In this document: one piece after another, positions 61,521 through 63,366 of the stretch | How positions within the stretch are numbered: the first letter of the stretch is position 1 | How the letters are laid out: every line of letters starts with the position of its first letter | From: Lentisphaerota bacterium | GTDB taxonomy: Bacteria; Verrucomicrobiota; Lentisphaeria; Victivallales; UBA1829 | Assembly: GCA_015061915.1 (NCBI GenBank) | Contig: SUVR01000004.1 | Location: forward strand, 62,001-126,000 | Length of the DNA stretch: 64,000 nt | Direction of reading: 5' to 3' | Made by a program: the position numbers and the translations under genes | Notes under the pieces: generated by a model | What the model saw: the letters and a program-made list of their open reading frames with translations, nothing else | What the model was told of the DNA's origin: nothing | Database searches by the model: none

Positions 61521-61555
61521 AAAAAGACTCCGGAGAAAAATTCCGGAGTCTTTTT
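61521..61555. terminator. Terminator closing the mini-gene array
   Basis: A 9-bp perfect stem (61526-61534 with 61542-61550) extended by A5/T5 flanks to 14 bp; it works in both directions. It resembles the terminator at 19242. Confidence 0.88.
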
Positions 61556-61577: not shown

Positions 61578-61817
61578 TTACTTCGCTGCTTCGTTCTTCT
61601 GCAGGACGCCAGCTTCCAGGAGCTTGTCGATCAGCTGCTGCATGCTGTTGAATGCGGAGAGGAAGCCCTGCGGGGGCATGATGATACGGACGTTGGCTTC
61701 CGGAACGGGAGCCTTGCCTTCTTCTTCCGGCTGGAGGGTCACGAAGTCATAGCGGACCATGCCGCCTGCGAAGTGGATCTGACCGATACCGTCTGCAAAA
61801 ATTTCTTTCTTAGCCAT
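61578..61817 (-). CDS. Tandem mini-gene copy 4 (79 residues), unknown function
   Basis: The last of four tandem paralogs in the order of transcription. The protein has a beta-rich N-terminal half (IGQIHFAGGMVRYDFVTL), a Pro/Glu linker, the invariant block VRIIMPPQGF and an amphipathic helix (about 52-70), then a short KNEAAK end. I do not recognise the family. The ribosome site AAGGAG lies in an A/C-rich, apparently unstructured leader like those of the other copies. DNA differences from copies 2 and 3 are almost all silent. Confidence 0.8.
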   Translation of the reverse strand: MAKKEIFADGIGQIHFAGGMVRYDFVTLQPEEEGKAPVPEANVRIIMPPQGFLSAFNSMQQLIDKLLEAGVLQKNEAAK

Positions 61818-61875
61818 TGTAATTTCTCCTTAATGTAAATTGTCGTTTTCTGTTGATTCTGTATTGGTTGTGCGA

Positions 61876-62115
61876 TTACTTCGCAGCTTCGTTCTTCTGC
61901 AGGACACCAGCTTCCAGAAGCTTGTCGATCAGCTGCTGCATGCTGTTGAAGGCGGAGAGGAAGCCCTGCGGGGGCATGATGATGCGGACGTTGGCTTCCG
62001 GAACCGGAGCTTTGCCTTCTTCTTCCGGCTGGAGGGTCACGAAGTCATAGCGGACCATGCCGCCTGCGAAGTGGATCTGACCGATACCATCTGCAAAAAT
62101 TTCTTTCTTTTCCAT
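61876..62115 (-). CDS. Tandem mini-gene copy 3 (79 residues), unknown function
   Basis: It differs from copies 2 and 4 in protein only at residue 2 (Glu for Ala). Several silent differences separate it from copy 4, so the duplication is not brand-new and the protein sequence has been held constant. The spacer before it (62116-62173) is nearly identical to the spacer before copy 4. Confidence 0.8.
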   Translation of the reverse strand: MEKKEIFADGIGQIHFAGGMVRYDFVTLQPEEEGKAPVPEANVRIIMPPQGFLSAFNSMQQLIDKLLEAGVLQKNEAAK

Positions 62116-62173
62116 TGTAATTTCTCCTTAATGTAAATTGTTGTTTTCTGTTGATTCTGTGTTGGTTGTGCGA

Positions 62174-62413
62174 TTACTTCGCAGCTTCGTTCTTCTGCAG
62201 GACGCCAGCTTCCAGAAGCTTGTCGATCAGCTGCTGCATACTGTTGAAGGCGGAGAGGAAGCCCTGCGGGGGCATGATGATGCGGACGTTGGCTTCCGGA
62301 ACGGGAGCTTTGCCTTCTTCTTCCGGCTGGAGGGTCACGAAGTCATAGCGGACCATGCCGCCTGCGAAGTGGATCTGACCGATACCGTCTGCAAAAATTT
62401 CTTTCTTAGCCAT
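62174..62413 (-). CDS. Tandem mini-gene copy 2 (79 residues), unknown function
   Basis: The protein is identical to copy 4. It ends in KNEAAK, lacking the Lys/Ala-rich tail of copy 1. The spacer before it (62414-62467) has diverged from the other two spacers but keeps the AAGGAG site, so the first duplication step is older than the later ones. Confidence 0.8.
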   Translation of the reverse strand: MAKKEIFADGIGQIHFAGGMVRYDFVTLQPEEEGKAPVPEANVRIIMPPQGFLSAFNSMQQLIDKLLEAGVLQKNEAAK

Positions 62414-62467
62414 TGTTTTATCTCCTTAATTTTGTGTTTGTTCTGTTAGTTGCTGTTGAGGTTCTGA

Positions 62468-62755
62468 TTACTTCTTGGAGGATTTCTTTGCTGCTTTGGG
62501 AGCTTCTTCAGCTGCGGGAGCTGCGGGTTCGTTCTTCTGCAGGACGCCGGCTTCCAGGAGCTTGTCGATCAGCTGCTGCATGCTGTTGAAGGCGGAGAGG
62601 AAGCCCTGCGGGGGCATGATGATACGGACATTAGCTTCCGGAACCGGAGCTTTGCCTTCTTCTTCCGGCTGGAGGGTCACGAAGTCATAGCGGACCATGC
62701 CGCCTGCGAAGTGGATCTGACCGATACCGTCTGCAAAAATTTCTTTCTTAGCCAT
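62468..62755 (-). CDS. Tandem mini-gene copy 1 (95 residues), promoter-proximal, tailed form
   Basis: The first copy in the transcript. Its first 74 residues equal those of copies 2 and 4; it then carries a 21-residue Ala/Pro/Glu then Lys/Ser-rich tail (ending KKSSKK) that the others lack. The tail resembles the Lys-rich tails of RsfS, Lon and the MocA-type enzyme in this window. AAGGAG lies 10 bp before the ATG. Confidence 0.82.
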   Translation of the reverse strand: MAKKEIFADGIGQIHFAGGMVRYDFVTLQPEEEGKAPVPEANVRIIMPPQGFLSAFNSMQQLIDKLLEAGVLQKNEPAAPAAEEAPKAAKKSSKK

Positions 62756-62797
62756 TGTAATTTCTCCTTATGATGTATTTTTTTGTTGTTTCGGCTG

Positions 62798-62830
62798 TTG
62801 AAAAAGAAAGTGCGCCTGTCTTCAGGGCAC
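62798..62830 (-). terminator. Terminator-like hairpin between leader and first mini-gene
   Basis: On the minus strand GTGC-CCTG, loop AAGA, CAGG-(C)-GCAC is followed by TTTCTTTTTC. It would release a short RNA of about 480-490 nt, or attenuate transcription into the array. Confidence 0.5.
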
Positions 62831-62870
62831 GGTGCATCTCAAGAGAGACGCAGATAGGGGACGGAAAGGC

Positions 62871-63242
62871 TCACAGCGTGAGAGCTGTGCATTTCCGGGT
62901 AAGATGTCCGCAGGAAACTCTGCGGAAAGAGGGAGCGGCATGACGGGCAAACCGATCAGACTTGGTGACGGTCTTGCGCGCTGCCGGTGCAAAAGCATTT
63001 ACAGTAATGCAAAGATTTGCGGAGAACGCCGTTTCACGATAGAGATAAGCGGCGATCCCGGCTTTGACTTCAAAGCAAAGCCCGATAGAAAGGACAGAAG
63101 CGGAAACAGAGGGAACTGCCTGATTCCAGTATTCCATTCCGGAGAACTGATTGCGGACAGCAACAACGGCACCTTCCCGCTCTTTCAGCGAGAATGTCTC
63201 AACCGCACTCTGGCGGATGCTGCAGTAGAAATTGTTGTCCAT
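62871..63242 (-). CDS. Possible 123-residue protein in the array leader (doubtful)
   Basis: A frame starting at ATG 63242, with AGGAAAG about 12 nt upstream, runs for 123 codons (MDNNFYCSIRQ...). Third positions are rich in pyrimidines, but so is the whole strand. The C-terminal 35 residues look random and overlap the strong hairpins. No family is recognised. I rank it below the structured-RNA reading. Confidence 0.25.
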   Translation of the reverse strand: MDNNFYCSIRQSAVETFSLKEREGAVVAVRNQFSGMEYWNQAVPSVSASVLSIGLCFEVKAGIAAYLYRETAFSANLCITVNAFAPAARKTVTKSDRFARHAAPSFRRVSCGHLTRKCTALTL

Positions 63243-63296
63243 GTTGTTCAGCTTTCCTGTTTCGTTTTCCGGCACGATCCTGTGCCTACATAAAAC

Positions 63297-63324
63297 ATTA
63301 TATCCCTTTTTTGCAAAAAGTCAA
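63297..63324 (-). promoter_or_regulatory. Near-consensus promoter of the mini-gene array
   Basis: On the minus strand: TTGACT (63319-63324), 16-bp spacer, TATAAT (63297-63302). It is the best sigma-70 match in the window. Confidence 0.8.
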
Positions 63325-63329
63325 GACCA

Positions 63330-63366
63330 TTTTTTGCATTTTTTTGCATTTTTTTGCATTTTTTTT
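63330..63366 (-). promoter_or_regulatory. Phased A-tracts (UP element/curved DNA) of the array promoter
   Basis: On the minus strand four A-runs of 6-8 bases (63359-63366, 63349-63355, 63339-63345, 63330-63335) recur with an exact 10-bp step, separated by TGC, directly upstream of the -35. This is the classic layout of bent DNA that boosts strong promoters. Confidence 0.75.

Follow-up and report, generated by a model that had tools for sequence, protein, structure and literature searches.

The array analysed here is an amplified, probably strongly expressed operon that consists of a promoter, a companion gene, four DUF3467-like gene copies and a terminator. It lies on contig C10 of the 2.49-Mb MAG of a gut bacterium of the Lentisphaeria (Victivallales), and "the window" denotes the whole stretch of 64,000 nucleotides that was analysed. 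Profile comparison makes the array protein a remote relative of DUF3467 (PF11950) by homology, and not a DUF3467 member. We see about an even chance that it is a mass-produced cytosolic accessory for giant-adhesin type I secretion, acting as a chaperone or a targeting factor. The association comes from gene neighbourhood, and the biochemical role is what we infer.

All elements of the operon are on the minus strand. The promoter TTGACT-N16-TATAAT spans 63297-63324 (-35 at 63319-63324, -10 at 63297-63302) and is preceded by four A-tracts at 10-bp steps (63330-63365), which form an UP-like or intrinsically bent element. It is the sole match to TTGACW-N15-18-TATAAT in the 64 kb, where 0.01 matches are expected, and the phased A-tracts upstream of it had zero expectation in shuffles. 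The preliminary description had placed the array behind this promoter. The promoter is real, but a 123-aa ORF that had been overlooked precedes copy 1. This companion ORF (62871-63242, C-terminus ..CTALTL, CAI 0.54) is the operon's first gene and comes ~50 nt past the promoter, and the distance from the promoter to copy 1 is ~540 nt. A riboswitch between promoter and array was considered, and Rfam gave nothing credible for the region. Hence, the stretch is read as coding. When the DNA of the promoter and companion stretch was compared across the family, only the A-tract region matched elsewhere, and it is of low complexity. A-tract sites elsewhere in the genome marked no obvious class of strong genes.

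The four genes stand in direct tandem. Copy 1 (62468-62755) encodes 95 aa, a DUF3467-like domain followed by an A/P/E/K tail. Copy 2 (62174-62413), copy 3 (61876-62115, with a MEKK start) and copy 4 (61578-61817) each encode a DUF3467-like protein of 79 aa. The start-to-start spacing is 342/298/298. The AAGGAG Shine-Dalgarno site of copy 1 is at 62764-62769, and the same element lies 5' of each copy. An intrinsic terminator (61521-61555; hairpin of 14 pairs with a T-rich tail, fold z -4.0) closes the operon. The preliminary description was thus correct on the four tandem copies of 79-95 aa, on the near-consensus promoter with its phased A-tracts, on the AAGGAG sites and on the strong terminator. 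The array copies are 86-96% identical to the reference copy at the DNA level, and the core differs from copy to copy by 4-7 synonymous and 0-2 non-synonymous changes. As these differences are almost all synonymous, the four copies look real and selected, and not like an assembly echo.

High production of the array protein is likely, because the codon adaptation of the copies is at the level of ribosomal proteins and above that of the other ORFs in the window. With nine ribosomal-protein genes from the same genome as the reference set (their own CAI, 0.60-0.87), the copies reach 0.816, 0.827, 0.843 and 0.840 (copies 1 to 4), and the other window ORFs of 150 aa or more (n = 48) do not exceed 0.79. 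In 2000 simulated genes encoding the same protein with background codons, the mean CAI was 0.55 and the maximum 0.76. The earlier proposal of abundant production is therefore likely to hold, as predicted from these codon values and the near-consensus promoter.

The family gene is conserved across the Lentisphaeria, usually with one copy per locus. Of 100 relatives, 79 carry it, mostly with ~75-90% identity across the taxonomic families of the order, and a profile search recovered it in other classes of the phylum as well. Its dN/dS is 0.01-0.13. Among the relatives examined, the four-copy array occurs in this genome only. In the sister species (G001), one contig starts within the 3'-terminal part of a family copy that precedes another, which indicates a tandem array there too, and G059 carries two copies in tandem. 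Arrays may be under-counted in short-read MAGs, as contigs would break inside them.

The earlier statement that the protein belongs to no recognised family holds for direct searches: its matches in Pfam, NCBIfam, PHROG and PDB sequences were chance only (ribosomal S20 and others). It does not hold for profile-profile comparison. Aligned by hhalign with ~34 Bacteroidales and Verrucomicrobiota DUF3467 proteins, the family gave a probability of 93% (P ~4e-7) over a span of only ~41 columns. The value was 87% with close family members only, and eight column-shuffled control profiles stayed at or below 9%. The DUF3467 model itself did not match the four copies. It matched 6/22 family members weakly (best E 0.0017), gave weak matches on family members in whole-genome searches of G038, G045 and G057, and reached its gathering cut-off (25 bits) in 0/61 relatives. 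Both groups share a core of R/Y-x-D-F, R-I-I-M/L-x-P and a helix. Unlike DUF3467, the family protein carries an E/G/P-rich loop as an insertion, and its helix ends differently (EAGVLQKN). Its AlphaFold model is beta-beta-beta-alpha (pLDDT 79), and a Foldseek search of the monomer model against the PDB gave no significant match (best E 0.46). No signal peptide is seen in the sequence. In L119 (G032:C38), a distant family domain is N-terminal in an ORF that continues, by eye, as methyltransferase-like sequence.

Many loci of the relatives carry an ORF of ~90-130 aa located ~15-110 nt downstream of the family gene. These companions are basic in their C-terminal half and end characteristically in -LRL, -GWRL or -FTL. 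An HMM was built from 34 of them, with the window ORF excluded, and searched against 2859 ORFs. The window ORF was matched with E=4.9e-5, and clear noise starts at 0.72. Its position differs, as it precedes the array in the window and follows the family gene in the 36 matches from relatives. Companion pairs in relatives have a dN/dS of 0.24-0.54, compared with the far lower range of the family gene, which marks the companion as a real, fast-evolving protein. The -hxRL-type end is found in 34/48 neighbouring ORFs versus 27/1420 others, a descriptive count computed after the pattern had been noticed. A companion is missing from many family loci. A Pfam search with the companion gave no credible match. 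Homology between companion and family protein, at which a companion model of low confidence (pLDDT 52) had hinted, was rejected (hhalign 0.2%).

The neighbourhood of the family gene in relatives points to secretion. We sampled 80 loci and counted same-strand genes that start no more than 2.6 kb past the family gene, with ORFs of at least 1100 aa as giants. A giant or a TolC-like OEP followed the family gene in 29/65 testable loci, versus 1/64 in the mirror-image upstream control; these counts ignore kinship, and loci of related genomes are non-independent. Among the 19 giants counted, those of L056 and L062 resemble signal-peptide proteins instead. In longer stretches, giants of 2385-4883 aa stand beside family genes and have no recognisable signal peptide. 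Ten measured giants contain 7-16% D+E versus 4-6% K+R, and one giant carries RTX repeats in an HMM scan. At L191 (G007:C94), a giant exoprotein is followed by HPr-kinase-like and PqqD-like proteins.

Some family loci continue with TolC and then a giant, and others with HlyB and then HlyD. A distant family branch stands directly before hlyB-hlyD in G045, G316, G055 and G196 (L194, L201, L249, L260). The order recurs in another class (G196, L260), and about seven further genomes show a comparable spacing by coordinates. In the examples scanned, the HlyB-type exporters match TIGR01846 with 640-682 bits, under the 725-bit cut-off, and HlyD matches TIGR01843 above its cut-off. HMM scans also support the OEP/TolC identity of neighbours, and the exporter carries a C39-like domain. 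The family gene is beside TolC in G251 and, by similarity, in G238, and 5/6 examined family loci of G316 adjoin giant, TolC or HlyBD genes. It precedes a TIGR04414 O-heptosyltransferase at L263 and L267 (565-570 bits, cut-off 200) and also at L083 and L110. No secretion gene is adjacent in more than half of the family loci. Family and type I HlyD co-occur significantly across all genomes (61/18/7/14, p=3e-4), but the association is modest and not significant in genomes at least 90% complete (p=0.07). At L246 (G006:C81), the family gene and its companion are oriented divergently from hlyB-hlyD. A ScmE-like radical SAM protein and a ScmC-like protein come next, and a second distant family member lies beyond them. 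We found no paper on a module of family gene and giant-protein secretion.

This exporter and substrate neighbourhood is found in the relatives' loci and not at the window locus. The neighbours of the array encode a sugar-binding protein and an enzyme of family GH39, and no secretion gene adjoins it. The genome nevertheless has the parts of the module, as HlyB-HlyD is encoded on contig C7 (L242) and a heptosyltransferase (587 bits) with an AIDA-type target on contig C21; the array is separate, and adjacency is absent. On C21 (G000:C21, L278:10577-16978, minus strand), a TibC-like O-heptosyltransferase gene precedes that of an AIDA-type protein of 1696 aa with strand-loop-strand repeats. The C-terminus of this protein reads ..KVTTIA, and it has 14 heptosylation-target repeats (TIGR04415). 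The TIGR04414 enzyme and the TIGR04415 repeats are those of the TibC/BAHT autotransporter heptosyltransferases (eLife 2014, PMC4358343), and the enzyme adjoins family genes in some relatives. Unlike the targets in that system, the 1696-aa protein has no autotransporter barrel in scans. In L280 (G092:C36), hlyB, hlyD and a heptosyltransferase form one run, which links O-heptosylation to type I secretion. The absence of a barrel and the position of the enzyme gene after hlyB-hlyD suggest type I and not type V export, and the 1696-aa protein is possibly a type I-exported heptosylated adhesin.

Type I secretion systems with RTX or large adhesin substrates share the neighbours HlyB, HlyD and TolC and the mostly acidic giants with the loci described here. 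The HlyB found here differs by an extra N-terminal region of ~140 aa. The family protein itself is no exporter, adaptor or channel, as it has 79-95 aa and looks soluble. Adhesins of several thousand residues are usually described as needing three membrane parts only for their type I secretion, and we know of no canonical system with a DUF3467-like or companion gene.

As the family gene in relatives adjoins genes for the glycosylation and export of giant surface proteins, it probably encodes an export accessory. That the protein is small, conserved and likely abundant, with these gene neighbours, leads us to infer a stoichiometric cytosolic one. In the proposed module, HlyB-HlyD-TolC would export giant, mostly acidic surface proteins of beta-helix, RTX or AIDA-like type, which a TibC-like enzyme, present in many genomes, would O-heptosylate. 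The small beta-beta-beta-alpha protein may bind large amounts of the secretion ATPase or of unfolded giant chains, and would thereby keep the chains export-competent or target them. Its likeliest contact would be the substrate or the N-terminal region of the exporter. The companion could be a fast-evolving partner fitted to a substrate or a regulator, and multicopy expression would meet the stoichiometric need.

The main rival, which we consider unlikely, is an RNA-polymerase-associated or transcription factor that helps to transcribe the giant messages. It draws on the remote DUF3467 homology, since Bacteroidales DUF3467 genes lie behind rpoC, with an RpoC C-terminal motif within 1.5 kb in 25/31 loci (L207-L237). 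This placement suggests that the wider family has another role. A literature search on DUF3467 gave one incidental mention and no paper on this placement. Giant genes of 7-15 kb would fit such a factor, and the weak top fold matches include nucleic-acid-binding PUR, MRP and PC4-like proteins, but these matches are non-significant. In contrast to the Bacteroidales, no family gene lies behind rpoC in this genome. The family gene also precedes hlyB-hlyD, TolC and heptosyltransferase genes, which are of ordinary length, and a polymerase factor has no obvious need for ribosomal-protein-level supply from four copies.

The preliminary description had favoured a structural, storage, nucleoid or surface role for an abundant protein, and such a role with no link to secretion is in our view rather less probable still. 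The abundance signature of promoter and codon usage suits this view, and two distant paralogues (L117 in G034, L120 in G020) have long K/P/A-rich, histone-H1-like tails, of which copy 1 has a short counterpart. Most members, however, lack a long basic tail, and placement beside secretion and glycosylation genes would be left unexplained. Given the lack of a visible signal peptide and of a significant fold match, and a neighbourhood that points to type I secretion, this assignment is not supported: abundance aside, the storage, nucleoid and structural readings are without support. We regard as improbable, and as the weakest candidate, an arrangement in which the companion is an exported bacteriocin-like or surface peptide and the DUF3467-like protein acts as its immunity protein, as its carrier or as a helper in its export, with the type I exporter serving both. 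The very fast evolution of the companion, its basic C-terminal half and recurrent end, and the exporter's C39-like domain agree with this arrangement. Against it stand the low CAI of the companion in the window, the lack of a visible double-glycine leader, its absence from many family loci and the failure to find a credible Pfam match.

Returning to the export accessory, we tentatively propose a wider scheme, which we hold to be possible rather than probable. A new two-protein accessory, a conserved DUF3467-like protein with a hypervariable companion, would serve giant-adhesin type I export and perhaps O-heptosylation across the Lentisphaeria, with tandem amplification raising the dose in some species. 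If true, this accessory would give DUF3467-type proteins their first functional context, and giant-adhesin type I secretion would gain a new component, a highly conserved cytosolic partner made in large amounts. It would also provide a testable role for the unexplained DUF3467 and a pointer to surface decoration by gut Lentisphaeria.
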